From Pectobacterium sp. CFBP8739 (lineage in GTDB: Bacteria; Pseudomonadota; Gammaproteobacteria; Enterobacterales; Enterobacteriaceae), in assembly GCF_013449375.1 (NCBI RefSeq), contig NZ_JACDRR010000007.1, positions 182,827 through 246,826 of the forward strand: a DNA stretch of 64,000 bases, in the 5' to 3' direction. Below, one piece after another: positions 114-17,429 of the stretch. How positions within the stretch are numbered: position 1 is the stretch's first letter; each line of letters starts with the position of its first letter. Both the position numbers and the translations under genes were made by a program. The notes beneath the pieces were generated by a model. The model was not told where the DNA came from and did not search any database. It saw only the letters and a program-made list of their open reading frames with translations.

Positions 114-151
114 AATAGCTTCCTTTAAAAGCATGGTGGTAAATGTGGTCA

Positions 152-625: not shown

Positions 626-647
626 AGTGATTCCTTAATAAATAAAA

Positions 648-676
648 TGCCCCCGCTGCATAAGCAACAGGGGCAG
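648..676 (-). terminator. Rho-independent terminator behind the 77-residue membrane protein gene
   Basis: Read on the minus strand, a GC-rich hairpin (GCCCCTGTTGC, loop, GCAGCGGGGGC) is followed by the T-rich tract ATTTTATTTATT. It lies 34 bp past the stop of the small membrane-protein gene and upstream of the RadC-like gene, so it should separate the two transcripts. Confidence 0.7.
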
Positions 677-709
677 GGATGGGTTTACTTTGTGTGGTTA
701 ACGCTATCA

Positions 710-943: not shown

Positions 944-959
944 GGGTTATCTCTCCCGA

Positions 960-1433: not shown

Positions 1434-1468
1434 GCGGGTTCCTCTGTGTGAATGGATCTGTCTCAGGG

Positions 1469-2041
1469 TTAGTAGCCGTAACGGCGGTGGTGCTCTTTGT
1501 TGAAGCCGTCTGCCAGCCATTTACCCAGTTTCTGCTCCTGTTCACGTTTCTGCGCCTTAATTTCCGCCATCTTTTTCTGGTCGATGCACTTTTCTGGAAT
1601 GCTCAGCAATAACGTCGGCTGCTCGGGCTTGCCGTCGGCAAAATTGGCGTTGAAATAGACCTTTGTGTCGGTAATTTCATAGGTACAGTTGCTGGTTTTG
1701 TTACCACGATAGACCACCTCCAGGTCACCTGATGTTTTTGACCGCGTACTCATATTTACCCGAGAAAGGGTTTTGGCCTTTTTATTCGCCAGAAACAGTG
1801 GCCCGTAGCCATCTCTGACAAAAAACTGCTCAGTCCAGGGATAGTTAAAAATCGTTCTGCCTCTATAGGTCATGCGGATTAACTGGTCATCACTCAGCCC
1901 ATCAGGGTTGGTCCAGCCAAGCCTTTTGAAGGTAAGCCAGGTGACCTGAGCAGGAAGCTCGGTTTCTGCCTGAGCGGAGAAGGTTGCCAGTAGCCCGATT
2001 ATCAGCCATCCCCGTTTGCCCGGAAGGTATGTAAACATCAT
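1469..2041 (-). CDS. Secreted uncharacterised island protein with charged C-terminal helix
   Basis: The protein has about 190 residues and starts at tandem ATGs (2041 or 2038), which open a signal-peptide-like segment ending in ATFSAQA. The open frame extends upstream to 2122, but that extension is polar and basic and unlikely to be translated. The mature part has two cysteines (NCTYE and KCIDQ) and a Lys/Glu/Gln-rich C-terminal helix ending HHRRYGY. No domain recognised. It is part of the secreted-protein run between the WYL regulator and the RadC-like gene. Confidence 0.65.
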   Translation of the reverse strand: MMFTYLPGKRGWLIIGLLATFSAQAETELPAQVTWLTFKRLGWTNPDGLSDDQLIRMTYRGRTIFNYPWTEQFFVRDGYGPLFLANKKAKTLSRVNMSTRSKTSGDLEVVYRGNKTSNCTYEITDTKVYFNANFADGKPEQPTLLLSIPEKCIDQKKMAEIKAQKREQEQKLGKWLADGFNKEHHRRYGY

Positions 2042-2219
2042 CGTATCCTTTATGTTGAAGTCATTATGAAAATCGTCCAGGCAGAACGGTGTCTGCCTGT
2101 GACGTCTGGTGTGGCTCTTCACTGAACTGCCCGGTAACGGCTTCTGTGTGCCGCTACGGGTACTGTCCTTTTTTATCCGTCTTTCTGGTTTTCTCTGGTG
2201 TTGGCATCGCGTCCCTGAC

Positions 2220-2918
2220 TTATGTGGCCGGAGACGTGCCGAAGGTGGTGAGTACGTCGTGAATAAAGCGAAAGTGCGGCAATGCCGTGATGAAGCTGGA
2301 TTGTGTGGTCAGGTGACTGATATCATCACGGCGCTGGAAGGACTCGGTAGAGACCGTCACCCCATGAATCTCATGCAGCGGCAGGACCAGAAGATGCCCC
2401 AGTGATTCGGCCACCAGATACCACTCGCCATACAGGCAGATAAGCCGGTAAGGCGATAACCCGTCATAGCGCTGACCGTCGGCCAGAAGCGTGACACGTA
2501 GCTGCTCACCAATTGCCCGAGTCAGACGGTAAAAATGCCCCGGCAGTGTCGGCGTACCGCGCAAGGGCGGATGCCAGACCAGACAGGGTGCGTCCTCACC
2601 GCTGTCCAGCAGGGTGTTAACCAACCGGTTATCCAGACCGGGAAACACGTTCTCCATCCCGGTCTGTCGGACAAACATCAGCACATCCTGCCCATGCCGT
2701 GCCGGGTTATGGTGCTCCGGCAAACGGCAAAGACCGTTGCGGTATTCCAGGTCGAGATACATCAGCCGTTCACGGAAATCTCGCCGCAAGGTGCGGGTAG
2801 AGACGCCGAACTCTGCCGCCAGTTTTCTAACGCTCAGTGTTTCGCCTGCCAGTAATCGGCTGATTATCAATGACAGCCTGACGGCCAGCCGGTCATATCG
2901 GCGGTCAGCCTGTGTCAT
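2220..2918 (-). CDS. WYL-domain transcriptional regulator with DeoR-type HTH (YfjR-like)
   Basis: This 232-residue protein has an N-terminal winged helix-turn-helix (residues about 27-48, LSVRKLAAEFGVSTRTLRRD). It is followed by a WYL ligand-binding domain, seen in the stretch around YDGLSPYRLICLYGEWYLVA. WYL regulators sense nucleic acids or nucleotides and often control mobile-element or defence genes. The gene lies between the GTPase gene and the secreted-protein genes, the position of yfjR in CP4-57. It probably regulates this island module, but no operator was identified. Confidence 0.85.
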   Translation of the reverse strand: MTQADRRYDRLAVRLSLIISRLLAGETLSVRKLAAEFGVSTRTLRRDFRERLMYLDLEYRNGLCRLPEHHNPARHGQDVLMFVRQTGMENVFPGLDNRLVNTLLDSGEDAPCLVWHPPLRGTPTLPGHFYRLTRAIGEQLRVTLLADGQRYDGLSPYRLICLYGEWYLVAESLGHLLVLPLHEIHGVTVSTESFQRRDDISHLTTQSSFITALPHFRFIHDVLTTFGTSPAT

Positions 2919-3287
2919 GGTGCAGCCTCCTGAAGCAGTTAACGGAATGAAAGTCCTGTGATTACTTTAAAGAGGGGCGTGGTCAGGGTATGGACACTAT
3001 GAAAAATATTTTTATTTTCAGTAAGAAAGCCGGTGGGATGCGGCCTGAGGGGCGATTGAGGTAAACAGGCTATGAGGGAAAACGCTAACCGTCGGACACA
3101 CCCTGTCCAGGTGGTTACAGAGTGATAACACTTGGCCTATCCATCACTGGCATGTCGCCAGCATGGTTTCTGCCATCACGACGAGTCACGTTAACTGAAC
3201 CATAGGAATGTCCTCAGAAAAAGAATAAACAAAAGCCCTGTAGCAAAAGCGACAGGGCCGGACGGGATGGGAAAGCATAGGTATTGC
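2919..3287. other. Intergenic region between GTPase and WYL regulator genes
   Basis: This 369-bp stretch has no convincing reading frame. It holds the terminator of the GTPase gene at 3235-3258 and presumably the promoter of the WYL regulator. Nothing else was recognised. Confidence 0.5.
3235..3258 (-). terminator. Terminator behind the GTPase gene
   Basis: On the minus strand GCCCTGTCGC-TTTT-GCTACAGGGC forms a 10-bp stem with one mismatch, followed by TTTTGTTTATTC. It lies about 30 bp beyond the stop codon of the YfjP-like GTPase gene. Confidence 0.75.
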
Positions 3288-4163
3288 CTAGAACAGCAGT
3301 GACCACAATGAACGGGCGAGTGACACCACAGTTTGTTTGAGGCCGCCGATAAGTATTTTTAGTGGTGCGGGGACGACAGGTAGCGCAATAACGCTATCAA
3401 GTACGTCGCCGACCGACTGGGCAAAATCATCTTGAGCCCGGTTATCAATAGCCACTGAACGCCAGTCGGGCTGTAAGCGGGCTGACAACGGACTGCTGGC
3501 CTTTGGCGGTAAACACTGAAACAGCGTTTCCACCATTGCTGCCATGCCCCAGCTAGTTTTTACCGACACGGCGCAGACTGGATGGGTAGGAAAGAAAGTG
3601 GAACGCACTGTGACGCGCTGGGCATAAATATTGCCAGACTGCTTTAATGAGGGTTGCTGCGCATCCCAGTCCCATTCGTGACTGGGCTCCAGCTTATCGA
3701 CCTGATTCAGAACAAATAGTATCTTGTCACGGTAGCGCTCACCGATAATGGTACGATAAATATGCTGGTCAATGGCAAGCGCCCGGTCATCAGCCTTGAG
3801 CAACCAGAGCACAAGATCAACACGTGGCAACCAGTGCTGATAGAGCGCAGCATAGTCATGGTCCCGCTCCTCACTCTCACCGACACCGGGCAAATCAACA
3901 AACAGAATGCTGCGTTGTCCTGATGACAGCCGGAACGTAAGAGCTTGCCGGGTACAGGCTCGGTTATCACTGACAGGGGACACTTCCCCCAGAAACAGTG
4001 CATTACACAGGCTGGATTTACCTGCACCGGTCTTCCCCATAATGCCGATGACGGGTTCGTATTGGATCAGTTGTTCAATGTGGTTAATAACGCGCTGGTG
4101 CAGGCTATCCGGCAATACTGACAGCGACGCCTGTATCTCGCGCAGATTCTCGTGGTTAAGCAT
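3288..4163 (-). CDS. YfjP/YeeP-family dynamin-like GTPase
   Basis: This 291-residue protein has a complete GTPase core: P-loop GKTGAGKSS at residues 43-51, G3 motif DLPGVGES near residue 98, and G4 motif NQVDK near residue 155. The C-terminal about 60 residues are hydrophobic (ALPVVPAPLKILIGGL, then VVSLARSLWSLLF) and could contact membrane. YfjP/YeeP GTPases are constant members of CP4-type islands, but their cellular role is not established. The gene starts the minus-strand module and has its own terminator. Confidence 0.85.
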   Translation of the reverse strand: MLNHENLREIQASLSVLPDSLHQRVINHIEQLIQYEPVIGIMGKTGAGKSSLCNALFLGEVSPVSDNRACTRQALTFRLSSGQRSILFVDLPGVGESEERDHDYAALYQHWLPRVDLVLWLLKADDRALAIDQHIYRTIIGERYRDKILFVLNQVDKLEPSHEWDWDAQQPSLKQSGNIYAQRVTVRSTFFPTHPVCAVSVKTSWGMAAMVETLFQCLPPKASSPLSARLQPDWRSVAIDNRAQDDFAQSVGDVLDSVIALPVVPAPLKILIGGLKQTVVSLARSLWSLLF

Positions 4164-4227
4164 AAGGATTTCTCAGACAGACAGAATGGCGTGGCGGCCA
4201 TTGAAAGCCACCACTGATTGGGGTGTG

Positions 4228-4250
4228 CATGGGGATAATATCTATCTGAA
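4228..4250. repeat. Imperfect 23-bp direct repeat, copy 1
   Basis: CATGGGGATAATATCTATCT plus three bases. It matches 12661-12683 at 20 of 23 positions in the same orientation. The two copies flank the block with the replication protein, AlpA and the STAND nuclease. It could be a nested-element boundary or a shared regulatory site. Confidence 0.45.
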
Positions 4251-4288
4251 AAAAATCTAATAATATCAAACGGAAATGCTGAATTTTT

Positions 4289-5083
4289 TTAGGTTGGAGT
4301 GATGACGGTAATCAAAGCTGGTTTACGGAAGGTAAGTCCATTCTTTTTTGAATCCGTGCGATACACCGGTACTATCACGGCATTTTTGTCACTGAACAGA
4401 ATAGGCACCCAACAGTAGACGCTTGGATCTTTGGCCGTTTTAGGAAATCCCCGCGTACCAGAAGATATCAGATCGATCATGTTAACAAACAAAGCACCAG
4501 TTAAATCAAAAAAGAGATTTTCGTAAATCACATCTTTTAGCATCAGAATAAAAGCATCACCTGCGGCTAGCCTTATCGGTGCTGATTCATCATCGCTTTT
4601 CTTCTTATCAGTAAATACAATCCGCTCGGCATAGATGAAACAGGCATACTGAGCACCTTTCCTATTTACTCTCATAGCTACGTCACAGATATCCTTGATA
4701 TAGCGACTCTCCACCTTTCCGATATGATCATCACGGCGATAATGGCGCTTTTTCTCTCGAACATGAAGTATCCCGCTAGCGCTATCAAAATCATACATTT
4801 TTCCCACGAGGAGATTGTTTTCAAAAATTTCCAGACAATATCGCTCAGCATCTACCACATTTTTTCTTCGTGGCAAATCCTGTCGATAGACGCCGGATAA
4901 TAGTCGTGTATTGAGTTCATCTGCGAGTTGATAGTAACAATTAACATCATTCAACACTGGCACAGTAGCATCAAGCAATGTAGCTATAGCCAGAGAGCGA
5001 GAGATACCTTGCTTCTTGCAGTATTCATCCACGACACGTAATGTGTCCGAATTAGTGACATTAAAGGTAATACGCTCTGCCAC
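4289..5083 (-). CDS. Orphan protein, 264 residues, unknown function
   Basis: A soluble protein with no recognised domain. The N-terminus (residues 1-35, RITFNVTNSDTLRVVDEYC followed by a helix with SRSLAIATLL) resembles a ribbon-helix-helix DNA-binding segment, but this is weak. A charged middle part (HVREKKRHYRRDD) precedes a mixed C-terminal domain with a hydrophobic helix around LFVNMIDLI. Base composition is more AT-rich than in the core genes, as expected of acquired DNA. The gene is monocistronic, and about 370 bp of AT-rich sequence lie upstream of its start. Confidence 0.6.
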   Translation of the reverse strand: MAERITFNVTNSDTLRVVDEYCKKQGISRSLAIATLLDATVPVLNDVNCYYQLADELNTRLLSGVYRQDLPRRKNVVDAERYCLEIFENNLLVGKMYDFDSASGILHVREKKRHYRRDDHIGKVESRYIKDICDVAMRVNRKGAQYACFIYAERIVFTDKKKSDDESAPIRLAAGDAFILMLKDVIYENLFFDLTGALFVNMIDLISSGTRGFPKTAKDPSVYCWVPILFSDKNAVIVPVYRTDSKKNGLTFRKPALITVITPT

Positions 5084-5453
5084 ACCTAGCCTCTTTGTTA
5101 ATCATATGGTAAATTTTGCATAACTTTAAACTTTAATGAATTATTTATCAATGGTTTATTATTTGTTTTTCAATGAAATAAAAATCATTATTAATGTAAG
5201 GCATATCTATTTACTATTTTTTGATAAGATATTAAGAAAGAACATTTGGGTTTTTAGTATAATTAATATTCTCTGTCTGCTCTCATTTCCCTTATCAATA
5301 CTACATGTATAACATAAGCAACAAATACGTCCGATAGCATCTACCCACTGTAATGGCGTACCACAAGAAATACCGTGATCGTCACACTGCCTTACTGAAT
5401 AGAAAACACATATCAGTCCATTTCTCTGTATATCCACTACAGAGGACTCGATT
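5084..5453. other. AT-rich intergenic region between divergent island genes
   Basis: This 370-bp AT-rich stretch separates the minus-strand orphan from the plus-strand replication-type gene. Both promoters should lie here. No convincing gene, RNA or iteron array was seen. Confidence 0.5.
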
Positions 5454-6035
5454 ATGAATTTTCCCTATCCCTATAACCGTAATTACACGATGAACTGGTT
5501 CCTACTTTCGTTAGTCAATGACCACCTTAATCAACTGTTAGCCCGTTACTCTCGCCTACAACCCATCAGGATCGATCTATTTTATCGTAAAGGTTCATGG
5601 CGTTATCTCCATCATGGGATGAAGCAGACTGAATGGGAGGTTCGCCAGTTGGCTGAAATGATGATGCGCCAAGGCAGACTCGTCGGATATTTTTGGGTAT
5701 TGGAGTCTACACCCCTTCATGGGTGTCATGCCCACATCGTGATGTATCTCAATAGACACAACAATCAGGCAACATATCCGGTAGCAGAACAGGCTGGAGC
5801 ACTGTGGCAGTACATAACGGAAGGCCAGGGTTACCACAACCGGTGCGATCGTAAAGCCAGCTATGAAGCTGATATAACCCAGCCAGTTAATTACGATGAT
5901 AACGTTGCTATCAATGGCCTACGCTACATCATCAGCTATCTGGCGAAAGAAAAGCAGAAGGACGGGCATTATTACTACGGTTCTAGCGAGGTTCCTACAC
6001 CCAGTGGGCTAGGAAGGCCACGAGGTAATTCGTGA
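5454..6035 (+). CDS. Inovirus Gp2 / YagK-YfjJ-like replication protein
   Basis: This 193-residue protein has the order of features seen in YagK/YfjJ C-terminal domain and inovirus Gp2 proteins. These are a lysine/arginine-rich strand region (IRIDLFYRKGSWRY), a central ESTPLHGCHAHIVMYLNR block with two histidines like the HUH metal site of rolling-circle initiators, and a C-terminal GLRYIISYLAKEKQKDG segment. Such genes sit next to alpA in satellite-like islands and are taken to initiate replication of the excised form. The nicking tyrosine was not assigned. The gene ends 103 bp before alpA, the next gene of the same strand. Confidence 0.75.
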   Translation: MNFPYPYNRNYTMNWFLLSLVNDHLNQLLARYSRLQPIRIDLFYRKGSWRYLHHGMKQTEWEVRQLAEMMMRQGRLVGYFWVLESTPLHGCHAHIVMYLNRHNNQATYPVAEQAGALWQYITEGQGYHNRCDRKASYEADITQPVNYDDNVAINGLRYIISYLAKEKQKDGHYYYGSSEVPTPSGLGRPRGNS

Positions 6036-6103
6036 AGGCAAAACACTTTTTACATTCCCACCGGTTGTTATGCCGGAGCAGGCAGTGATAACCAGCATCT
6101 CGA

Positions 6104-6129
6104 CTCCGGTACTCTTTAAACTACCGGAG
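6104..6129 (+). promoter_or_regulatory. Hairpin that buries the alpA ribosome-binding site
   Basis: CTCCGGTA (6104-6111) and TACCGGAG (6122-6129) form a perfect 8-bp stem around a 10-nt loop. The 3' arm contains GGAG, the probable Shine-Dalgarno of the AlpA start at 6139. Folding would hide it. The inverted repeat could also be a protein operator. Confidence 0.5.
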
Positions 6130-6138
6130 AATTTCGCT

Positions 6139-6345
6139 ATGACTGTTCAACCTTCCCTACTTGAAGACCAGTTTGTTGATATGGCATTCATCACCAAACT
6201 GACAGGGCTCACCGACAAATGGTTTTATAAACTGATCAAAGATGGCCTGTTTCCCAAACCCATTAAGCTAGGGCGTAGTTCCCGTTGGCTACAAAGTGAA
6301 GTGGAGACCTGGTTACAGCAGCGCATTGATAGGTCTCGTCAGTAA
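6139..6345 (+). CDS. AlpA-family excisionase/transcriptional regulator
   Basis: A 68-residue protein of the AlpA/MerR-like helix-turn-helix class, with DMAFITKLTGLTDKWFYKLI for the first helices and FPKPIKLGRSSRWLQSEVE for the wing. AlpA proteins activate integrase or excisionase genes and promote excision of CP4-57-type islands. I chose the ATG at 6139 because GGAGA lies 8-9 bp upstream and the family starts near this point. An upstream in-frame ATG at 6070 would add 23 residues without family likeness. The gene is probably co-transcribed with the Gp2-like gene. Confidence 0.88.
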   Translation: MTVQPSLLEDQFVDMAFITKLTGLTDKWFYKLIKDGLFPKPIKLGRSSRWLQSEVETWLQQRIDRSRQ

Positions 6346-6448
6346 CGCTTTCCTACATTTGCAACAATCCTCCCAACAGCCAATTCAACAATCTGCTTTC
6401 TGCGAAACTTTTGGCTACCAATTTATTTAGATAAAGGGTTATTCACCG

Positions 6449-7024
6449 ATGAAAGAAACAGCTGCTTGCTACGATGATCTACTTAACGCTTATCAGCGCT
6501 GGTTGACCGATTTGACCAATATCGCAATTAGAAACGGTATGTGTCATCCAGACATTCGATACAGTCACTGCCTTACAGTTTCAGTTTTGTATTTTCCCGA
6601 AGCAGGGGCAGTTACAGCGATTGTACCGCAATACCTGTACCGAATAGTTCATGGTAAAAAATGGCCTGACCCGCTGTTTTCACTAGATGATTTACGAACA
6701 ATTCTCGCAGCTAATGATGAACTTCTATTCACCCATGCTGGGCTGGAAGGGATTTTACTGAGTGAATGCGTCAGACTGAAGCAAGGCCGCCTTGCAAACA
6801 AACTGATCTGCCTTTTCTCACAGTTTAAGATGCGTGAAATTCGCCATAAACTTGTCTGGCTATGTTGGTATGACCTTATGCGCGGGGCTTCAATGAATGA
6901 CTGGTTAGTGAATTTGAAACTGATGAATAACGAGGAGATTTGCTTCTGGCTGGGTAAACGGCAGGAAGAAAATACGGCGTTGACAAACCTGATGGATGAA
7001 TATGTCGTTTTTACGCGCTACTGA
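6449..7024 (+). CDS. Orphan protein, 191 residues, unknown function
   Basis: A mostly alpha-helical soluble protein with a helix-rich C-terminal half (RLANKLICLFSQFKMREIR, KLVWLCWYDLMRG, GKRQEENTALTNLMDEY). It is rich in Trp and Cys but has no CxxC pair. No family recognised. It follows alpA on the same strand and could belong to the satellite core. The start ATG at 6449 has only a weak ribosome-binding site (aaaGGGttattcaccg). Confidence 0.6.
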   Translation: MKETAACYDDLLNAYQRWLTDLTNIAIRNGMCHPDIRYSHCLTVSVLYFPEAGAVTAIVPQYLYRIVHGKKWPDPLFSLDDLRTILAANDELLFTHAGLEGILLSECVRLKQGRLANKLICLFSQFKMREIRHKLVWLCWYDLMRGASMNDWLVNLKLMNNEEICFWLGKRQEENTALTNLMDEYVVFTRY

Positions 7025-7352
7025 TTACTGGTATCGCGGAGTACGTTGAATGGGATGTATCTGGCTAAATACCTCAATGACTATTTTTTGACTAAGGCTT
7101 TGATATCGCTCATAGCGCTACCCTGAATCCCTTTTTCAGACAGTTTCGAACCATAGTAGGGGCGCTATTTATATCCCTGTGAGCTAATCGATAGCAATAC
7201 ACAATCAGTGGTCACCATTCATTGCTCAGAACTCGGACGCATAGTAAAAAAAAGCCTTTGGGTCTACGAAGCTTTGTAAGAGACTGATAGATAGCCACAG
7301 TGACTTATTTACCCTCGGGCATTGGCAGACTAGATAGGAGCATCTTGAAATT
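7025..7352. other. Intergenic region upstream of the STAND nuclease gene
   Basis: A 328-bp stretch without a convincing gene. It should carry the promoter of the 1633-residue gene. Just before the start the sequence GATAGGAGCATCTTGAAATT supplies a Shine-Dalgarno-like AGGAG, though about 15 bp from the ATG. Confidence 0.5.
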
Positions 7353-10300
7353 ATGGCAACCACTACTACTTTACCGGCAGGTGGACGCGCAACTGAAGCA
7401 GGAATGGCTTTCCAGGCTGGTGTAGGAATGTGGTTTGCTGCTCACTTACTTGCCAGAATGCCCGTTGGTAGTCGTTTTGGTTTAGATATTGAGGCGTATC
7501 CTGTTACTTTGCAAATGGAGACGGGGCAGGGTTTAGACGATATTTTGGTAACATTGTCCAATGGAGGTTGTATTGCTGTGCAGTGCAAGACTCGGCCTAG
7601 CTTGTCGGCATTAGCCACCTCAGATCTTGGTGAGACAATCGCTCAGACAGTCCAATTTGTTGCTGCTGCACCAACTACATCGCCTGCCATAAACCTACAA
7701 CTTTCGGCTGCTGTGATGGCCGTGACTCCAGATGCTCCAACTACACTCAATGCGTTAGATGAATCCTGCAGAATGTTTACAACAGGCGATAACTGGCAGG
7801 CAGTTATCGCCCGTGTGGGCCAGGCACAGCGGAATGCGATAGAAATTCTTCAACAACATATTACTATAAGCCGTTCTACTGAGAATCTACCTGCCCCTAC
7901 AGAGATAGACTTAGCGCAGTTGGCACGTTTATTTCACATTAAGCGCTTCGCAGTAACACAGGGTGATACCGATTGGCGAGAAGCCTCAAACATACTTGGG
8001 GCTCGGCTTTTTGGGGGAGAGGAGTGTGGGGCTGCACCACTCGCGAGCCTTTTGACAATTATGAGGGGCTTGATACGAAATGGTGCACCTTCCGACAGAG
8101 ACGGTCTTCTTCGACTGTTAAGAGCTGCTGGGCACGAAGACACAAAGACACCTCATTTTGATGAAGATATTACAACGCTTCGTCAAAAAACGCAGACGGA
8201 GATAGTGCGACTGCAAAATCATGCTTTCCTGCCTATTTCTGGTGGGCTTCAAATCGAACGGACATTTATGCCAGCAATGAAAGCTGCTGCTGACGCAGGC
8301 AGTTTTTTGTTAACGGGCGAGCCTGGTGCTGGCAAGACTGGTGTGCTGGTATCATTTACTCGGGAGCGTCTTACAACAGACCAGACCACAGTTTTCATTT
8401 CCGTGGATGATTTAGCGGGCGTAGCCACCGAAGATGCCTTACGAGTTGCACTAAACCTACAACATCCCCTCATCGATGTATTATCTGCATGGCCTGGACA
8501 AGGGCGAGGCGTTCTTGTCATTGATGCTCTGGATGCATCGAGAGGAGGTTACTCAGAAGGCGTGTTCGCCAGCCTGATAGAAGGTTTACAGGTGAGGCTT
8601 GAAGAAAAATGGTCGGTAGTTGCCTCCATTAGATCCTTTGATCTTAGAAATGGGAAGCGCTTTATGAGAGCGATGGCAGGAACGCCACCTGACAATACGT
8701 ACATCGATAGCACTGTGGCAAATGTCAGGCACTTCCAGATACCTCTGCTTACAGAGCACGAGATGAAAATAGTAGGTTCCAACGAAGCTCGTATCGGTGA
8801 ATTGCTAGCTACTGCGCCTGTATCGGTTCGAGCTTTGTTGCGTAATGTTTTCAACCTTTCGTTAGCGGCTGAATTGTTGGAAAGTGGAACAACAGCTGTA
8901 AACCTAGCAATGGTCACAACCCAATCCGATTTAATTGATCGCTACGAAGATGAGCGGCTGCTTTCTACAGATCTACAAGCATCGGTTACAAGAGCTGTTG
9001 AAGTCATGGTTGAACGGCGTCGTTTAATACTACGCAAAATGGATGTGGCACACCCAGCGCTAGACGATGTCCTCGCCGCTGGCGTACTTGTTACTAATGG
9101 TGATCGTATTGGGTTTGCACACCATGTTCTTTTCGATCACGCTGCCGGTCGTTTTTTCCTCGATTGGAATGATACTGCACAGCTTGTCATCCAGCTTTCT
9201 GGTACTGAAGGGATCGGCCTCCTTCTAGGGCCATCTCTTCGGTTCGCTATTGAGAGAGTTTGGTGTGATGATTCCGCTGGACGTCCGCATAGTTGGGGTT
9301 TTGTCTCTGAACTGGTTGCAACACCTGGAATTGATCCAGTTGTAACGAGCGCCGCACTTCGCTCTGTAGCCGAGCGGGTTGCTGAACCAGAGGATATCAC
9401 CTCTCTATGCTCATTGCTCATGCGACCAGAGCAAGCAGGTCGCATGGGATCCATATTCTCTAAAATTGTTCGATTTGCTGAGATGAGTTTTGGCATAGAT
9501 TACCCAGTTCCAATTTCAGTTTGTACTGCATGGGCAACTGTGGCAGCAGTGGCGGCCAGTACGCAACAGCGAGAATATGCCGATGGTATACATATAATTT
9601 TGCATGCCCTCGTTCAGAAGGCGAATTTCACTGATGCTGATTTCTTAGATAGTTTTGGGAGAGCAGCACGTGATTTGTTACGGATTAGTTGGTCGGGTGA
9701 CCCACAATTAACGTTCTTCTCTAATAGTGCAATTCGTTTCGTCACCAAGTCATTTGGTAGCGCCCCTGCAGCGTCAAGATTCCTTCTTCAGCAAATTCTT
9801 CAAGAGCCTCGCTTCACAGAGTATGCGCACAGTGACGCTCCACGGTTGACGGAAGGGGTAAAACATATCATTCCCCATGATCCAGAATTTGCCATTTCTG
9901 TTTATGAGACTCTCTTTGGACGCTCCGCACCTTCAGATGGAGATAGTTGGATCGGTGGCTCAGTGAGCAGGATTATGCCGTTGCGCTCAAATCGTCGACA
10001 GGATTACGAACATGGCCGCTGGAACTTGGTGCAGGCACTACCCGAATTTCTTCGTACCTTTCCTGCTGAGGCTACGCGAGCGGTAAATTTAGCAACTTTC
10101 GGCATGGGATTGAGCGATAGACAAAGACGCGCAGAACGCCTAGTACATGTTATCCAATGCGATGCACAATTAATGAACATTGTTGAGGATGGCCTTTCAT
10201 ATCGCGATTGGCGAGGCAATTATGATAGTACGGTCTCACAAGACGGGGATGTGCTCGCAGTATTTGTCAGCTTCCTTGTGTCATGTCAGCCTGATGAGTT

Positions 10301-12254
10301 CCGACAAGTGGTAATTACAGCTCAGCAAGAAGAGGTGGGGGCTGCATCGGTATGGGCCCGTATTTTTGGCATTGGTGCTGAACGGCTTGGGGTTGCAGAC
10401 GATCTGCTCTGGCCTATTGCTTCAGCTCACGGTTTAGTCCAAATAACAGATCTTGCTCGCGATTGTACTGCCTATCTATCATCAGCCTATGCAACAGCAT
10501 CGACAGATCAACGCACTGCATTGGAAAATCGTTATGTTGAGAACGTTCTCGCAACTGGTGAAAATGAGGCTGTTCGAGCGAGTTATTGTGCTGCTCGCCT
10601 GCTCTCTATTCTGTGTGACGAGTTGATAGCTACAGTTGCATTTCGTGATCTGAAAGCACGGTTAGAGGCTGAGGGACTTCTCACGAGCAACCGTCCAGTT
10701 ATAACCATAGAGACCACATGGAATCCAGTTGGTGATGTAACCGAAAGCTTTGTAAGACGACTTGGAGTTAATGTTGACGAAGTGCCTGACCGACTAATTC
10801 TAGATGCATTGCAAGCTTTGGATGCCGCGTCTAAGGAAGTACTTAATGTTCCTGAATTGGGGTCTTTAGCGCGCCTGTGGGCTGAGGTGTCTTCAACTAT
10901 TGAGGTAATTGATGGACTGTTAATATCAGCTCATGAAGCCACGCAGCAAGCTGCGTGGGGGAAAATAAGCATTGCGCTTGACTGCATTTCTGGAGCGGAA
11001 CTCTACGATCCTACGAGTGCGGGACATCCAACATTAACTGAGCTTTTGGGAATATTAGACAGACTAGTTGAGAGCCAACACTCTACACCACTTTCAAATG
11101 TAGCAAGTACAACGATGGTTCGGGAAAACTTGGCTTCAAGTTTTATGAACCTTGCATGCCGATTCGGTAGAACTGACATCACTTTGCTTGATCGCATTGA
11201 GGTGATGCTTGATGATCTAGAGCCTATGGTCAGGCAACAAGTGTCTGGCTCTCTCAATCGCCTATGGGATATAGACCGCCAACGTATGTGGGCCCTAATG
11301 ACAAAGGTTGTCCACCAAGAAGTAGATCGTTGTAACATGGCTTATTTTGTGGGGGGACCGCTACACAGTGTTTCGAATGTGGACGTTGAACAGGCCGAAA
11401 ATTTACTTATAACTATTATTAATTGTTTCCCGATAGCAAGTGAAAGTGGTTCTGAAGAGGAGAAAAAACTTGCACAAGCATTGGGAACTATGGTGACTGA
11501 CCTCTATGTCTACCAAAATAGAACCGCATGTTTTGCTCATTTTTTAAACTGGCTGCAAAATATTGCCAGTGCCAGTGATTTATTTCATCCAGGTGTTTTT
11601 AAATTGCGCGATGCATTTTTCTTCAAATATCTGGATAGGGATGCGGATATCCAGGATAGAGCAAGAGAAGTTCTAGGAAAGGTCGTTGCTGCTGCGGCAA
11701 GATCATTGCCAGTAGCACTGTCAAATTTTAATGCTTCCGAGGAAGGATCGCATCAACAAGCCGCAAGCGAAAGGGATTATAACTTAGCATTAAGGCTTAT
11801 TGAGCATTGTGTGAACCAGCTGTATTTCGGGTCGGGTGCGTATACTTCCAACAGTGCTAAGAATGAAGCGATGCTGAAAACGGCAGCCCACAAACGTAGC
11901 TTCTTAGTTGATTATCAGCCCATTCTGTTCGCGATAGGTCAGTCTGGAGGTCCATCTGCAATTCATTTCCTCGTTCAACTTTACGAGTATATAGCTGATG
12001 GAGATCCGGCTGCTGTATTTGATGAAGTGGCTGCACTTCTTGTAGGACCTGCAGCACGTGGGCAGTATCACTTCGAAAGCCTCGCAAGTGGTGTTGTAGT
12101 GCAGATCGTAAGACGCTATTTAGCGGATTATCGGGAGATATTCGAAGAGCCTGCCAGAAGAACCGCGTTACTTTGTGTACTTGAACTTTTTTCAAATGCC
12201 GGTTGGCCGCAAGCGTTCCAATTGTTATACGAATTGCCTGATTTAATGCGGTAG
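7353..12254 (+). CDS. Large STAND NTPase with N-terminal PD-(D/E)XK-like nuclease (candidate antiphage protein)
   Basis: A 1633-residue single-gene system. Residues 1-110 look like a PD-(D/E)XK nuclease of the kind found on defence proteins. It has a helix with FQAGVGMWFAAHLL, acidic residues at LDDILV (Asp62, Asp63), and the Q-x-K strand IAVQCK (residues 74-79). A P-loop NTPase follows, with Walker A GEPGAGKT (322-329), Walker B VLVIDALDA (387-395), and a sensor-like stretch VVASIRSFD (about 420). The remaining about 1100 residues appear helical and repetitive, suiting a ligand-sensing solenoid. Nuclease-STAND-repeat order and size resemble Avs-type proteins, which cleave DNA after recognising phage proteins. 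Membership in a known Avs type cannot be settled here. It stands alone in the island with its own upstream region. Confidence 0.8.
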   Translation: MATTTTLPAGGRATEAGMAFQAGVGMWFAAHLLARMPVGSRFGLDIEAYPVTLQMETGQGLDDILVTLSNGGCIAVQCKTRPSLSALATSDLGETIAQTVQFVAAAPTTSPAINLQLSAAVMAVTPDAPTTLNALDESCRMFTTGDNWQAVIARVGQAQRNAIEILQQHITISRSTENLPAPTEIDLAQLARLFHIKRFAVTQGDTDWREASNILGARLFGGEECGAAPLASLLTIMRGLIRNGAPSDRDGLLRLLRAAGHEDTKTPHFDEDITTLRQKTQTEIVRLQNHAFLPISGGLQIERTFMPAMKAAADAGSFLLTGEPGAGKTGVLVSFTRERLTTDQTTVFISVDDLAGVATEDALRVALNLQHPLIDVLSAWPGQGRGVLVIDALDASRGGYSEGVFASLIEGLQVRLEEKWSVVASIRSFDLRNGKRFMRAMAGTPPDNTYIDSTVANVRHFQIPLLTEHEMKIVGSNEARIGELLATAPVSVRALLRNVFNLSLAAELLESGTTAVNLAMVTTQSDLIDRYEDERLLSTDLQASVTRAVEVMVERRRLILRKMDVAHPALDDVLAAGVLVTNGDRIGFAHHVLFDHAAGRFFLDWNDTAQLVIQLSGTEGIGLLLGPSLRFAIERVWCDDSAGRPHSWGFVSELVATPGIDPVVTSAALRSVAERVAEPEDITSLCSLLMRPEQAGRMGSIFSKIVRFAEMSFGIDYPVPISVCTAWATVAAVAASTQQREYADGIHIILHALVQKANFTDADFLDSFGRAARDLLRISWSGDPQLTFFSNSAIRFVTKSFGSAPAASRFLLQQILQEPRFTEYAHSDAPRLTEGVKHIIPHDPEFAISVYETLFGRSAPSDGDSWIGGSVSRIMPLRSNRRQDYEHGRWNLVQALPEFLRTFPAEATRAVNLATFGMGLSDRQRRAERLVHVIQCDAQLMNIVEDGLSYRDWRGNYDSTVSQDGDVLAVFVSFLVSCQPDEFRQVVITAQQEEVGAASVWARIFGIGAERLGVADDLLWPIASAHGLVQITDLARDCTAYLSSAYATASTDQRTALENRYVENVLATGENEAVRASYCAARLLSILCDELIATVAFRDLKARLEAEGLLTSNRPVITIETTWNPVGDVTESFVRRLGVNVDEVPDRLILDALQALDAASKEVLNVPELGSLARLWAEVSSTIEVIDGLLISAHEATQQAAWGKISIALDCISGAELYDPTSAGHPTLTELLGILDRLVESQHSTPLSNVASTTMVRENLASSFMNLACRFGRTDITLLDRIEVMLDDLEPMVRQQVSGSLNRLWDIDRQRMWALMTKVVHQEVDRCNMAYFVGGPLHSVSNVDVEQAENLLITIINCFPIASESGSEEEKKLAQALGTMVTDLYVYQNRTACFAHFLNWLQNIASASDLFHPGVFKLRDAFFFKYLDRDADIQDRAREVLGKVVAAAARSLPVALSNFNASEEGSHQQAASERDYNLALRLIEHCVNQLYFGSGAYTSNSAKNEAMLKTAAHKRSFLVDYQPILFAIGQSGGPSAIHFLVQLYEYIADGDPAAVFDEVAALLVGPAARGQYHFESLASGVVVQIVRRYLADYREIFEEPARRTALLCVLELFSNAGWPQAFQLLYELPDLMR

Positions 12255-12683: not shown

Positions 12684-12698
12684 ATAATTTTAATAAAA

Positions 12699-12947
12699 TT
12701 ACTTTTTCATCGGAGGGATCTTGGGGCCACTCACTGGTGAAAAAGTCCCCTGGAAGGTTGTTGGAGCAGAAGTTTGACGGCCATATTCGAGAATTTGGTT
12801 ACCTTGTTGTGGTTTGGCAACCATCTGAAGACCTTCAGAAACGACCTGAGCACCACTAGTTGCTATCTGTAGCCCGTCTTGTATCTTGACTTGTCTACCA
12901 TCAAAGGTCAGCATGCTGGTTTTTTTCGGTGTCTGATTCTTTGTCAT
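12699..12947 (-). CDS. Small basic soluble protein, last gene of the WYL-linked operon
   Basis: An 82-residue protein starting MTKNQTPKK. The C-terminal third is rich in Gly, Pro, Ser and Thr and ends PVSGPKIPPMKK, probably disordered. No domain recognised. The ATG at 12947 has GAGG 6 bp upstream. The gene overlaps the 3' end of the membrane-protein gene by 47 bp in another frame, which suggests translational coupling and a joint function. It is the fourth gene of the operon. Confidence 0.6.
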   Translation of the reverse strand: MTKNQTPKKTSMLTFDGRQVKIQDGLQIATSGAQVVSEGLQMVAKPQQGNQILEYGRQTSAPTTFQGTFSPVSGPKIPPMKK

Positions 12948-13599
12948 GTGGAACCTCAATGTGGTTTTCAAATACGACCATTTTGCCGTATTCTTTTGAG
13001 AGATAAATAAAGTTCGTCATCCAGAGAGCATCCCCAGTTTCCGAATTGAGCACGGTAGCATTTAAAAGCCCAAGCTCCTGTGTCTTCTCATTTTCGTTAT
13101 ACAGAAAGACTGTTCCATGGATGAGCATATTGTTTTCATGCAATAGAACGTAGCATTGGCCTGTATTCCTGTGCATGACCTCAACTGATCTTATAAAAGC
13201 ATTGTCATCGCCATATTTATTTGAAATACCCTTACGTAATAACAATTCATGAAATGTACGTTTGGTTGCAAGGTAGACAGAAATCAATCCCAAGGGGATA
13301 GCACAAAGTCCTCCCAGTAAAATCTCCAATGGATTAATAGCTATCTTTTCCTGATTGGAAATTGACCAGACTGACAGTAGTCTCCAGTTAATGGATTTAG
13401 TATCTCCAATCCCTGCAATTAGTTGAAATAAAATCATAACTGCCTGCATTGAAAGGTAAGTAACAATACCAAAAACCACCGACATTAGAATATATCGAAA
13501 TGAATCCCAGGACTTATGTTGTGTATAGGTATCATAAATTAGTGCCATAATGACACCAGGGATCATTATTGTTACTAGAGATACTGTCAATGTGTTCAT
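12901..13599 (-). CDS. Membrane protein resembling the DUF6338 family
   Basis: A 232-residue protein with about three membrane helices in its first half: residues 5-22 with IMIPGVIMALIY, about 35-62, and about 92-115. A soluble cytoplasmic-type domain of about 110 residues follows. The N-terminal PG-containing helix followed by a second helix and a C-terminal beta-rich domain fits DUF6338 proteins as I know them, but that is a recollection. It is the third gene of the operon, 35 bp after the exported-protein gene, and its end overlaps the next gene. Role unknown; it could be the membrane effector. Confidence 0.65.
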   Translation of the reverse strand: MNTLTVSLVTIMIPGVIMALIYDTYTQHKSWDSFRYILMSVVFGIVTYLSMQAVMILFQLIAGIGDTKSINWRLLSVWSISNQEKIAINPLEILLGGLCAIPLGLISVYLATKRTFHELLLRKGISNKYGDDNAFIRSVEVMHRNTGQCYVLLHENNMLIHGTVFLYNENEKTQELGLLNATVLNSETGDALWMTNFIYLSKEYGKMVVFENHIEVPHDKESDTEKNQHADL

Positions 13600-13634
13600 T
13601 TACATTTCCAATAATTCAATTTTAAGATCAAATA

Positions 13635-13979
13635 TCAATTGGTAACCCTAACTTCAGTAACCTTAAAGCTATCTGGATTAATAGAAAAACTATTATAAGG
13701 AGCCTGTAATTTCCAACTTTGCCCTGCCTCAAGGTTTTCTACCATCGCAATGGTTTGTCCCACAACGGCATTATTTTGAAGCAGGTTAAATTTCACGAAC
13801 ACATGTTTTAATGTCTGGTTGGTCGAATTAACGCCATTACCTTCAATCTGCTGCATTCCATTTGGAGTTGTGGCAAAGCGAAGGTCAGAAAGGAATACTT
13901 GTTGGTTACCATCTGAAGCAAGCACAGAACCAGAAACCATAGCGACAGTAAAAATGATATTGCGAAGAGTTTTTTTCAT
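13635..13979 (-). CDS. Exported FxLYD-like domain protein
   Basis: This 114-residue protein has a signal peptide (MKKTLRNIIFTVAMVSGSVLA) and a mature domain of about 93 residues with the pattern of FxLYD-type beta-sandwiches: GNGVNSTNQTLKHVFVKFNL, then VVGQTIAMVENLEAGQSWKL. FxLYD domains are small extracytoplasmic modules often found beside membrane proteins. It is the second gene of the operon and probably acts in the periplasm with the membrane protein encoded next. The ATG has no strong Shine-Dalgarno. Confidence 0.65.
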   Translation of the reverse strand: MKKTLRNIIFTVAMVSGSVLASDGNQQVFLSDLRFATTPNGMQQIEGNGVNSTNQTLKHVFVKFNLLQNNAVVGQTIAMVENLEAGQSWKLQAPYNSFSINPDSFKVTEVRVTN

Positions 13980-14061
13980 TGAGTTACCAATTATAAGTAT
14001 TGAGCTACGGGTGGGTGAATAAAGGCAGGTCGTAATGACCTGCCTAATACCGGTAATAAAA

Positions 14062-14223
14062 CTACTTTGTTTTACGACAAGCCGTACAATGGGGAATAAC
14101 TAAAACTTTCCCCTTTTTAGGAAGAATCACCTTGCCCGTCTTTTCATGGATAGCTTTTGTAGCAAACGAAATTTCACAATCCTGTTTACAGCGTGGGCAG
14201 TAGCCCATTCGTGGTGTGGTCAT
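14062..14223 (-). CDS. Small zinc-ribbon protein, first gene of the operon
   Basis: A 53-residue protein with two cysteine knuckles, CPRC near the N-terminus and CTAC near the C-terminus, spaced as in a zinc ribbon. The centre is Lys-rich (VILPKKGKVLV). I chose the ATG at 14223 because AAGGAG lies 6 bp upstream; a longer frame to 14259 has no such site. It is the promoter-proximal gene of the divergent operon. It may bind nucleic acid, but this is inferred only from the fold type. Confidence 0.65.
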   Translation of the reverse strand: MTTPRMGYCPRCKQDCEISFATKAIHEKTGKVILPKKGKVLVIPHCTACRKTK

Positions 14224-14566
14224 ATACCACTCCTTATGTTTCACGGAGTGCCATTTCACCGGAGGCAGGCTTGTCGGCTACGCTACAATTAACGTATACT
14301 CGACATTCTGATCAGCAAGACTCAGTGGTGAACGACTCTCCGCAGAGTTTTTGTTTTTCTGGTGAAGGACTGTCTGCAAACAGTCCTTCACCATCCCCTC
14401 AGAAATAATCCAACCAGACTAACAACTTCACCTGAATGAACCGTCCTGAGCTATCATGTCGATTAGATTACTTTCTCGACTGAGGTGATCCTATCTCATT
14501 GCGTAAAGCAGTGCAATATGTGATAATGAACAGTATATTTAATAGATTATAAATTGGAGCGTATCG
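14224..14566. promoter_or_regulatory. Divergent control region of the WYL regulator and four-gene operon
   Basis: About 340 bp hold both promoters. A perfect 13-bp inverted repeat lies at 14361-14392. A smaller one, ATTGC (14498-14502) and GCAAT (14513-14517), lies about 50 bp before the regulator start. Both are candidate operators. ATTGGAGCGTATCG provides the regulator's ribosome-binding site. Confidence 0.55.
14361..14392. promoter_or_regulatory. Perfect 13-bp inverted repeat
   Basis: GGTGAAGGACTGT (14361-14373), loop CTGCAA, and ACAGTCCTTCACC (14380-14392) pair without mismatch. Neither strand has a T tract after the stem, so an intrinsic terminator is unlikely. Its place between divergent genes suits an operator or a leader hairpin in the operon mRNA. 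Confidence 0.55.
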
Positions 14567-15493
14567 ATGTCAATGTTTCATGATGTTCATCTGGAACTGC
14601 TGGTCGACGCCTATTCACTTCCCCAGGCAGAACGACTTGCGTACATAGATCTCTGTATTCGCTATCTTGGCAGCATCTCCAGAGCTGAAATTATGGCTGA
14701 GTTCAAGGTTGCTCAGGCTGCAGCATCTAAGGATCTTGCTCTCTATCGGGAGTTAAAACCGGATAACTGCAGCATTGATACTACAACCAAAAGAACTGTT
14801 ATCCTTGCAGACAGCTATACCCCACTAATCAGGATTGGTGTTCACACTGCCCTTAACCTTATTCAGTATGGGTTTACGCGCTCCGAATTAATGCAAAAAC
14901 GGCCCATGCTACCCATTGATGAGGTGGACCCGCTCTATCAGCCGGAACGTCTCAAAGAACAACAGGTAGCGGCGGTAACAAGGGCAATAAAGAGACAATG
15001 TGCCATTAGATGCTCATACGGTTCAAAAAGTGGTGATCACAGGGAAAGGATACTGTTTCCATCAGCGTTGTTTGTTGACCGCAAGAACTGGTATTTCAGA
15101 GCTTATGACCGAAATGAGGAACAACCACACCGCAGTGGTTTTAAGAACTTCAAACTATCCAGACTTTTTGATGCTCATTTGGAAGCTTCAATTTCACCAA
15201 CTCTTGCTGAGAAGACCGATAGGGAGTGGGATGAAGAAATCACTTTTATCATTGAATTTAAAAAGAATTTACCAAAAGAAACAATTAATGAGATATCACG
15301 CGAGTTCTCTATCAATGGTAACGTCCATTCCGTCACTTGCCGCGCTGCGCTGGCCTGTTATGTTAAAACCAACTGGAAAATTGATTTAACCAACGATATA
15401 AGCAACCAGTGGTTGTACTTTGATGTACTGAATGCAGAGGCCTTACGGGAAGTTCAGTGCCTGGCATCATTGTTTGAACAAAAAAACGGGTAA
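14567..15493 (+). CDS. BrxR/CapW-like WYL-domain transcriptional regulator
   Basis: This 308-residue protein has a winged helix-turn-helix (about residues 36-66, SRAEIMAEFKVAQAAASKDL) and a WYL domain (about 145-200 with RILFPSALFVDRKNWYFRAY and FKNFKLSRL). A C-terminal dimerisation-type domain runs to the end. Size and layout match BrxR/CapW regulators, which repress BREX, CBASS and other defence operons. No known defence operon lies downstream. The divergent four-gene operon is the natural target. It is the last island gene before the integrase. Confidence 0.85.
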   Translation: MSMFHDVHLELLVDAYSLPQAERLAYIDLCIRYLGSISRAEIMAEFKVAQAAASKDLALYRELKPDNCSIDTTTKRTVILADSYTPLIRIGVHTALNLIQYGFTRSELMQKRPMLPIDEVDPLYQPERLKEQQVAAVTRAIKRQCAIRCSYGSKSGDHRERILFPSALFVDRKNWYFRAYDRNEEQPHRSGFKNFKLSRLFDAHLEASISPTLAEKTDREWDEEITFIIEFKKNLPKETINEISREFSINGNVHSVTCRAALACYVKTNWKIDLTNDISNQWLYFDVLNAEALREVQCLASLFEQKNG

Positions 15494-15960
15494 TTATTAC
15501 AACATATTGATTTGTGGCTGCTTTGCAGCCACCTCCTTTATCTTCCATGGGTTGCGCCCATCTCATTCATCATATTTCTCGATCCGTATTGTGCCGGAAA
15601 AGATACCGACAGAATTATTACTGTTGTTGGTAAAAATACGTATTTATAGCCAGCATTACCTTTTGAGGTAGTTCATTTGTGTGAATAATAATCACGATTT
15701 TTGATGATTTCGTCTATGGTATTTCTCAACATAATGTCAGCCATTGCTCACAGTCGACAGTCAGATTTAACCTCACCTTGTCGCAGATCAGTGTCCTGTT
15801 GAGTAATGCCTAATCCATCTGATATTTCAGTGTTATCTGGTATGAGTTTGGATATTTTTGCTATATAGAACCTCTCTAGTATGAGACCAGTAAAATTAGT
15901 GAGTTATATACACATCATGCAAAAGCCGGAACAACTCCGGCTAATCATCTGCCTGCCTAC
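15494..15960. other. Intergenic region between WYL regulator and integrase
   Basis: This 467-bp region between convergent genes holds a hairpin right after the regulator (GTGGCTGC-TTT-GCAGCCAC, 15514-15532), probably its terminator despite a weak T tract. The rest is AT-rich with no convincing gene. Confidence 0.45.
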
Positions 15961-17175
15961 CTACTGTCGCTTACCCATCACCACAACCTTCTTCACATCC
16001 CCATGTTCCAGCCCATCAATAAAATCCCCATACCACTGCAACATACCCCTTCGCTGCTCCAAATACTGCGCATGGTTATACGTTCCACGAATGGTGTTCT
16101 TGTCCACATGGGCAAGCTGCAATTCGATCCAGGCGGTGTTATAGCCTTGTTCGTGTAGTATGGTGCTCATTGTGTGACGAAAGCCGTGGCCTGTCGCTTT
16201 ACCGTGATAACCAATCCGTTTCAGTACCTGATTAATACTGGCTTCACTCATCGGTTTGGTGATGTCGTTACGTCCAGGGAAAACCAGATTGTAGCGCCCG
16301 GTAACGGCCTGGAGCTGTTGCAGCGCATCAATCACTTGAGCAGATAGGGGCACGAGGTGAGGGCGGCGCATTTTCATGCGTTCTTTCGGTACTTCCCAGA
16401 GCCCTTTTTCGAAATCAAACTCCTTCCATTCAGCTTGTCGTAATTCGATAGTACGAACGCCGGTAAGCATCAGGATACGTGTTGCCAGTTGCGTGATCTT
16501 ACTCCCCGAATAAGTTGATAAAGCACGTAGAAAATCCAGCAGTTCATCAGGTAGCAGGTGAGGGTAGTGCGTAGCCTTTGGTGGGGGAAGGGCGCTTGCC
16601 AATTCTGATGCTGGATTGTTTTCCGCTCTGCCAGTGACAATGGCGTAGCGGAACACCTGATTACAGGCTTGGCGGATTTTACGCAACTTGTCGAGTACGC
16701 CACGTTTTTCCAGTTTGCGCAGCGAGGTTAGCATTTCCAGCGGCTTAATCTCTGCAATAGGGCGTTTACCGATATCAGGAAAAATATCGTTCTCAAACGC
16801 TTCCATCAGATCTTCTGCGTACCCCTTCGACCAGTTAGGACGCTTATATTCATGCCATTCGAGAGCGATGGCCTTGAAGGTGTTATCGATATTGATTTTT
16901 TTAGCCTGTCTTTCGACCTGCTTTTGTTCACTGGGATCGCCACCTGAGGCGACGATTTTTCGAGCCTCTTCCCGTTTTAATCTCGCTTCTGCCAGCGAGA
17001 TGTCAGGATAAACGCCGATAGATAATTTTTTCTCTTTTCCTGCAACGCGGTACTTCAAACGCCAATATTTGGCTCCATTCGGCTTTATCAGAAGATAAAG
17101 GCCCGCGCCGTCAGTGAGTTTGTATTCTTTGTCTTGTGGCTTGGCGGTTTCTATTTGTCGAGCATTAAGTGGCAT
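15961..17175 (-). CDS. P4-type tyrosine recombinase (island integrase)
   Basis: This 404-residue integrase has the DUF4102 arm-binding N-terminal domain (LTDGAGLYLLIKPNGAKYWR) and a core-binding domain in the middle. Its catalytic domain has the expected residues: Arg in TGVRTIELR, the HGFRHT box, His in LAHVDK, and the Tyr nucleophile in NHAQYLEQR. It starts 178 bp from the 3' end of tRNA-Arg and reads away from it, the usual P4/CP4 arrangement. It should integrate and, with the AlpA system, excise the island. It appears intact. Confidence 0.95.
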   Translation of the reverse strand: MPLNARQIETAKPQDKEYKLTDGAGLYLLIKPNGAKYWRLKYRVAGKEKKLSIGVYPDISLAEARLKREEARKIVASGGDPSEQKQVERQAKKINIDNTFKAIALEWHEYKRPNWSKGYAEDLMEAFENDIFPDIGKRPIAEIKPLEMLTSLRKLEKRGVLDKLRKIRQACNQVFRYAIVTGRAENNPASELASALPPPKATHYPHLLPDELLDFLRALSTYSGSKITQLATRILMLTGVRTIELRQAEWKEFDFEKGLWEVPKERMKMRRPHLVPLSAQVIDALQQLQAVTGRYNLVFPGRNDITKPMSEASINQVLKRIGYHGKATGHGFRHTMSTILHEQGYNTAWIELQLAHVDKNTIRGTYNHAQYLEQRRGMLQWYGDFIDGLEHGDVKKVVVMGKRQ

Positions 17176-17352
17176 TGCGGGGGCCCCTAATAGTCATTGA
17201 ACAAGAAGAGCCCCCATAGAGGCCCCCAACATCGACTTGATTTCCGGTATGCTGGGTTGACCTCGGTGGAGCTCAGCGACAGAAAATCCTAGTGGTATCA
17301 ATGAATATAACGGGGTTTTGTTGAACTCGGTAGAGTCTGGGAGAAGATAAAA

Positions 17353-17429
17353 TGGTACGCCCTACAGGATTCGAACCTGTGACCTACGGCTTAGAAGGCC
17401 GTTGCTCTATCCAGCTGAGCTAAGGGCGC
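17353..17429 (-). tRNA. argU: tRNA-Arg (anticodon UCU)
   Basis: On the minus strand the 77-nt gene begins GCGCCCTTAGCTCAGCTGG, has the anticodon loop CTTCTAA (UCU), the T-loop GGTTCGAATCC, and an encoded CCA. The first acceptor pair is G-U instead of G-C. The integrase lies directly at its 3' side, so this tRNA is the island's attachment site and its 3' part forms one att copy. Confidence 0.95.

Follow-up and report, generated by a model that had tools for sequence, protein, structure and literature searches.

Avs proteins, which have a nuclease-STAND-repeat layout and are activated by terminase or portal, and PDC-M54A, a candidate defence family of PADLOC-DB, are the described systems closest to the locus reported here. 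PDC-M54A is catalogued as a candidate, apparently without tested members, and a full-text literature search found no paper naming PDC-M54. PADLOC also holds PDC-M54B models, and a two-gene rule, read from the A/B model names, is not followed by the locus in our window (the whole stretch of 64,000 nucleotides that was analysed), where no PDC-M54B was found. What is new here is this single-gene arrangement, the family itself being already catalogued. The parts of the encoded protein are as follows, in window positions:

7353..12254, plus strand: PDC-M54A-type nuclease-STAND-HEAT protein (nuclease part putative), 1633 aa, ATG start, without internal stop
7353..7757, plus strand: PD-(D/E)xK-like (Cap4/DUF4297-like) domain of putative fold, about residues 1-135, limits inferred
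7518-7589, plus strand: conserved N-terminal residues E56, D62, D63, Q77 and K79, with the motif Q77-C-K79
8277..9179, plus strand: STAND core and following region, residues 309-609, the part with homology to Avs2 and with the best match to PDB 9n00
8316..8339, plus strand: Walker A, GEPGAGKT, residues 322-329
8511..8537, plus strand: Walker B, VLVIDALDA, residues 387-395
8625..8633, plus strand: S-x-R motif, S425-x-R427, with a putative sensor-type arginine
10053..12002, plus strand: weakly conserved solenoid part, candidate sensor region, residues 901-1550
12003..12251, plus strand: strongly conserved C-terminal cap, residues 1551-1633

The gene at 7353-12254 is real and intact. The 1633-residue frame claimed from the letters alone is uninterrupted, and its nearest relative found, a Variovorax protein (L003), aligns end to end at 66-67% identity. 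Codon positions 1, 2 and 3 agree in 75.7, 82.8 and 38.4% between the two genes, a pattern indicating that both are held by purifying selection; the next relatives, 39-40% identical, are plasmid-borne, in Rhizobium, Agrobacterium and Gemmobacter. Moreover, the key residues (D62/D63, Q77/K79, the Walker motifs and S-x-R) are invariant across a 13-sequence alignment, and both Walker motifs named at the outset are thereby borne out. Near residue 1255 (about position 11117) the protein lacks six residues, SWGNWD, which are present in Variovorax and partly conserved in the family. This gap adjoins the point, near residue 1240, where the PDC-M54A gene of another genome (G623) divides into two frames overlapping by 4 nt (L047:1417-5244 and 5241-6410); the division may be natural, giving two chains, or may have arisen by recent breakage.

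Against PADLOC, residues 7-1633 matched positions 10-1621 of the 1621 of PDC-M54A (E=0, 1208.6 bits), i.e., over the whole length, and three PDC-M54A models (PDLC04702, 04700, and 04701) were the only families found at E<=1. The sequence-only reading had proposed an Avs-like or new STAND defence family. A new family is rejected by the full-length match, and the profile check against Avs went against membership, with no Avs model matching at E<=1; what stands is a STAND core homologous to that of Avs2. In hhalign comparisons with an alignment of five proteins matching an Avs2 model, residues 309-609 aligned (94% probability, E=1.4e-7), whereas the Avs2 C-terminal part, the one Avs C-terminus compared, gave a best segment of only E=0.045 and 1.2% probability, and the Avs2 N-terminal domain had no significant match to the PDC-M54A N-terminus (E=0.39). 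One Avs2 model also weakly matched three of the 13 relatives (best 0.014). The protein thus has the ~300-residue STAND core of Avs2 and the layout generally known for Avs, but an unmatched N-terminal domain, a C-terminus that does not align and no Avs HMM match; judged from its sequence, it is a STAND protein related to Avs through its core, not an Avs by the models or, for Avs2, by the sensor.

Features of the STAND superfamily are present (Walker A, Walker B, a later arginine, and a STAND-type core). Pfam matches at E<=0.1 across the 13 members, the window protein included, comprised among others AAA_22 in 13, AAA_16 in nine, nSTAND3 in six, and HEAT in five, as counted among the 25 families listed of 30; the window protein itself had sub-threshold matches only, chiefly to the P-loop, and none to nSTAND3 at E<=0.1. 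Among the best 60 of 81 PDB matches, the 13-member family profile found 9n00_A (‘AAA family ATPase’, 1523 aa; E=1.7e-11) in four segments that keep the same order in both. Two of them are significant alone, at 22.9 bits for the NTPase and 17.7 bits for the region after it; the other two, the nuclease-motif segment at 0.9 bits (independent E 510) and the HEAT segment at 10.1 bits (0.89), are collinear but not significant by themselves. The second fragment of 9n00 has PDC-M54A as its sole PADLOC match (9.7e-6), and for the first fragment PtuA and TRIP13 models score higher; 9n00, 9n01, and 9yix are distant relatives of PDC-M54A. No paper was found for these three codes in the literature searched, and they are absent from the available passages of PMC12931631 and PMC12799240.

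The Q-x-K motif of a nuclease-type N-terminus, as first read, is conserved: all 18 sequences examined have D62-D63 and Q77-x-K79 (here Q77-C-K79), and 17 have E56, the exception being Nonomuraea (L052), with Q instead. The 18 are the 13 aligned sequences, window included, and five more, some closely related; the count leaves out L008-L010, L015, and L016, which run off their locus ends, L049 was dropped as having the protein accession of L027, and L007 and L037 are one gene. A comparison by hhalign with eight loci that the Cap4/DUF4297 model had identified, three at scores under its cut-off, was weak (probability 1.2%, E=0.044). In it the motifs FQ, E, DD, and QxK fall in register, and the probability of 1.19 was above that of all 40 column-shuffled controls (best 0.36). 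No match to Pfam Cap4_nuclease at E<=0.1 occurred in any of the 13 members (among the 25 families listed of 30), and the N-terminal profile found no nuclease in the PDB. For the suggested profile check against PD-(D/E)XK and DUF4297 families, the outcome is a weak in-register match with a probability above 40/40 shuffles, and no nuclease match in the listed Pfam families or in the PDB. Relative to the Cap4/DUF4297 dsDNA nuclease (PF14130), the same motifs are found in the same order, but the window protein has no Pfam match and the profile score is weak; the domain weakly fits a Cap4/DUF4297-like PD-(D/E)xK nuclease of putative fold and activity.

At the other end, Pfam HEAT matched five of the 13 members (best E 1.1e-4), with no match at E<=0.1 in the window protein itself, and the family profile matched PP2A-A HEAT chains (best 5.7e-6, among the best 60 of 81 PDB matches). 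The long helical C-terminus previously noted agrees with these matches, by which the PDC-M54A C-terminus is HEAT-like. The least conserved segments lie mostly within residues 901-1550, identity between the window and Variovorax proteins being lowest at residues 1101-1200 (48%), and conservation in the last 83 residues (1551-1633) is close to that of the NTPase. By this pattern the variable middle may be the sensor and the constant end a structural or partner-binding cap. Sensor specificity in the C-terminal part, as the sequence-only reading had it, is plausible, most of all for residues 901-1550.

We propose that this is a single-gene, nuclease-fused STAND protein of the PDC-M54A family that probably acts against phages (or against mobile elements). 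This candidate function draws support from the full-length PDC-M54A match, the conserved motifs and their register with Cap4, the Avs2-like STAND core, the 9n00 match, the HEAT similarity of the family, purifying selection, the cargo of sister islands, and a neighbour of BrxR/CapW type in the same insert. It is also in keeping with the genes beside relatives, which are of RM, HEPN, Shedu, Abi, and ABC-3C kinds. In the resting state the ATPase would be held inactive; a phage product would bind the HEAT-like C-terminal solenoid, most likely via residues 901-1550, and the STAND module would then bind ATP and oligomerise. Oligomerisation would gather the N-terminal Cap4-like PD-(D/E)xK domains, by which DNA would be cut and infection stopped, the outcome being cell death or destruction of phage DNA. 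In the clade of the window protein the fused nuclease would be sufficient, and other branches would couple a second nuclease or RNase gene. We infer the steps beyond gene anatomy from what is known of Avs and Cap4, including the nuclease fold and activity, the ligand, the oligomerisation, and the anti-phage effect.

Counted against this reading are the weak Cap4 profile match with no nuclease found in the PDB, the 9n00 segments that are not significant alone, the absence of relatives from the phage records and viral contigs searched, and the three of eight sister stretches in which none of the tested defence genes was found. A further point against it is the second nuclease-type gene in several relatives, so that the fused domain may not suffice. 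The alternative that survives best, rather unlikely in our judgement, takes the N-terminal domain not as the killing effector but as a nuclease-like DNA-binding or regulatory domain, with the STAND protein recruiting or activating a separate nuclease that in this genome is encoded elsewhere or lost. PDC-M54B (463-481 aa) directly follows the A gene with a 4-nt GTGA overlap in four loci (L004, L028, L029, and L030), and Shedu precedes it in two (L024 and L025), with overlaps of 1 and 4 nt when the family-alignment start is used, the annotated start leaving ~60 bp. An OLD-TOPRIM protein gene lies before PDC-M54A in L034/L005, a HEPN_LA2681 gene after it in L026, and a DUF4365 protein gene after it in L051; tight coupling is seen for PDC-M54B and Shedu only, and these three may be chance neighbours. 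One M54B used as query found three plasmid records, all three also with PDC-M54A. Relatives of the PDC-M54A-coupled Shedu, in turn, occur in 130 plasmid records vs. only 14 for PDC-M54A, so Shedu looks like an acquired partner.

What argues against a separate nuclease is that the catalytic-type residues are equally invariant in solo and paired PDC-M54A members, and that no partner was found for the window gene. PDC-M54B was absent from the 10 proteins flanking it (PADLOC scan) and from its own genome with PDLC04706, one of four B models; a Shedu search of that genome gave no match, and the same search gave nothing in any control genome, leaving it without a positive control. By tblastn, no partner remnant was found in the window contig over a stretch that reaches from the window’s right end to 22.8 kb beyond its left end, nor were remnants found in L003, L027, L031, and L032. 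A hidden M54B or Shedu partner was thus not found in these searches, the absence of Shedu resting mainly on the tblastn of the window contig stretch.

In a tree of 15 intact proteins, the window protein and L003, L024, L025, L026, and L027 form one group (support 100/100) in which PDC-M54B was found in 0/6, and the sister group (89/91), which includes a long Hymenobacter branch, has it in 4/6; the other three rows are actinobacterial. Within the window’s clade, L024 and L025 are coupled to Shedu, L026 adjoins HEPN, and the window gene, L003, and L027 are apparently solo. The description of the gene as stand-alone is accurate for these last three loci; elsewhere the system has two genes, with PDC-M54B, or lies beside other nuclease-type genes.

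Some further observations concern these neighbours. A Shedu 62% identical to the coupled one (L080:4026-7431) has a different ATP-binding protein ~10 bp upstream, which suggests that Shedu of this type may have further ATPases as partners. The Variovorax relative lies head-to-head with a giant STAND gene on the minus strand (L003:4-5481), Avs1b-like at E=1.6e-21, of which 1826 aa lie in the locus before it runs off the end. PDC-M54B has an ExK nuclease-like N-terminus and, at its end, conserved Cys and His residues in a cluster that looks zinc-type by eye; searches of Pfam at E<=0.1 and of the PDB at E<=10 found nothing for it. An HsdR-type nuclease was considered for it and rejected, since the ExK stretch alone matched (hhalign E=0.12), and it is called PD-(D/E)xK-like by eye only.

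Returning to the single-gene, nuclease-fused reading, a broader view of the family can be put forward tentatively, as possible though on balance doubtful: PDC-M54A may be a modular STAND platform, a fixed ATPase-solenoid with a built-in Cap4-like nuclease, to which unrelated second effectors (PDC-M54B, Shedu, OLD-TOPRIM, HEPN, and DUF4365) are added as genes that overlap or adjoin it, the window branch working with the fused nuclease alone. If so, the family would offer a natural series for studying the contribution of a second effector to an immune receptor of nuclease-STAND type. As the single-gene form, the window locus is the simplest construct in which to test PDC-M54A as a defence gene and its N-terminal effector, and the paired relatives allow asking why other branches add a second nuclease. 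The distribution of M54B also suggests that a search requiring this partner would miss the window’s clade.

The gene lies within an island with these features:

5454..6345, plus strand: island core, REP/YagK-YfjJ-like (sub-threshold Pfam) and AlpA-like (by eye)
7052..7352, plus strand: upstream DNA of the variable insert; the left arm in common with L070 stops at 7051
12698..15502, no strand assigned: separate module of an FxLYD protein, a hypothetical protein, and a WYL regulator
12901-13599, minus strand: hypothetical protein, membrane-like by eye
13635-13979, minus strand: FxLYD protein
14567..15493, plus strand: BrxR/CapW-family WYL regulator, 308 aa (phmmer 7qfz E=1.2e-25, CapW 7tb6 1.2e-16)
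15961..17175, minus strand: tyrosine integrase of the island
17316..17346, no strand assigned: attR core, 31-bp exact repeat of attL, which lies 20.8 kb leftward, outside the window
17353..17429, minus strand: tRNA-Arg(tct), integration site, which we take to be argU

The claim of an argU island is confirmed by the tRNA gene, the adjoining integrase, and the 31-bp direct repeat 20.8 kb apart. This repeat, at the 3’ side of argU, is longer with mismatches allowed; the attL copy lies 3.5 kb left of the window, and the island measures 20.8 kb. Its description as satellite-like found no backing, the genes identified being the integrase, RadC, a GTPase, and a sub-threshold YagK/YfjJ match.

The integrase is 97-98% identical in eight same-genus genomes, and all eight sister stretches, one of only 10.5 kb, were compared. 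Along the left arm L070 matches window positions 1-7051 at 94%, and it matches again only at the integrase end, so that 7052 to ~15960 is exchanged cargo there. Parts of the left arm recur in L065 and L067 and its first 636 bases in L072, whereas L066, L068, L069, and L071 have only the integrase end in common with the window. The 31-bp core was not refound in the eight stretches with up to four mismatches, and since their left ends were not located, ‘same slot’ applies strictly to L070, the others lying beside the same integrase. The STAND gene thus sits in the variable cargo of the argU island. The L070 boundary also places ~300 bp of upstream DNA within the STAND insert. As to the control region of its own that was earlier proposed, there is a 328-bp gap upstream of 7353, mostly of the same insert, but sigma-70 and terminator scans found nothing.

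As regards the cargo of the sisters, L070 carries a class-2 OLD nuclease beside a UvrD-like ORF (by eye), L067 a GajA-like ATPase with a 98% twin in L068, and L069 a protein partially similar to DRT1 (E=8.6e-7 over 125 residues) with a 96% twin in L072. OLD/Gabija-like or DRT-like genes are consequently found beside the same integrase in five of eight sisters; none of the tested defence genes was found in the stretches of the other three (L065, L066, and L071). Two Ser/Thr kinase-like ORFs (by eye) were also seen beside the OLD/UvrD pair (L070 reverse complement, 14557-16682).

The neighbouring module (12698-15502) is 87% identical in E. coli ET776, where it adjoins annotated ATP-dependent endonuclease, UvrD helicase, and type I RM genes; two of 5426 E. 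coli genomes match, both of frog-derived strains. Its WYL protein is homologous to the BrxR/CapW regulators (see Picton et al., PMC9122601), and all five phmmer sequences at E<=0.01 were WYL/BrxR/CapW chains. A 17-nt inverted repeat lies upstream of the WYL gene (14360-14393), whereas upstream of the STAND gene there is only a 10-nt palindrome. WYL control of the STAND gene was considered and is doubtful, no inverted-repeat operator having been seen in common and the module occurring in E. coli strains with no DNA match to the STAND gene; the module looks separately acquired.

The gene has a narrow distribution. It was found in 0/23 other same-genus genomes, in one genome besides its own among 369 of the class (E<=1e-40), and in four besides its own among 398 of the phylum (E<1e-40), a tally of 75/398 at E<=0.001 being mostly P-loop matches; in the class of G320, the count was 1/385, G320 itself. 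No DNA match was found in E. coli genomes and no PDC-M54A relative in phage records or viral contigs. We read it as a rare, patchy gene that has moved horizontally.

Plasmid records with a PDC-M54A match number 14, of which eight are typed conjugative, and the window gene lies in an integrative island. Both facts would fit a defence that serves the island by acting on plasmids or rival mobile elements and not on phages. OLD/Gabija and DRT are anti-phage classes, and their presence beside the sister integrases argues against such a role; the sequence itself does not separate phage from plasmid targets, and we hold this alternative to be improbable. Less probable still is a non-defence regulatory or DNA-repair NTPase: the P-loop is similar to that of many ATPases, but the patchy occurrence (in the genus and in the class), the variable-cargo position, and the full-length match to a defence-candidate model speak against it. 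The least probable of all is a true Avs sensing terminase or portal, since beyond the common domain order, the Avs2-like core, and the weak model matches in 3/13 relatives, no Avs model matched at E<=1, neither terminal part aligned significantly with Avs2, and BLASTP against the Avs1b-like Variovorax neighbour gave at best a P-loop-region match (E=0.092).

Beyond the island border, a type I hsdR-hsdM-hsdS operon (by eye) lies just left of attL (own contig ~172304-178029; window -10522 to -4797), and ORFs with the same starts as this operon are found left of the DRT-like gene in one sister genome (G004, L069).
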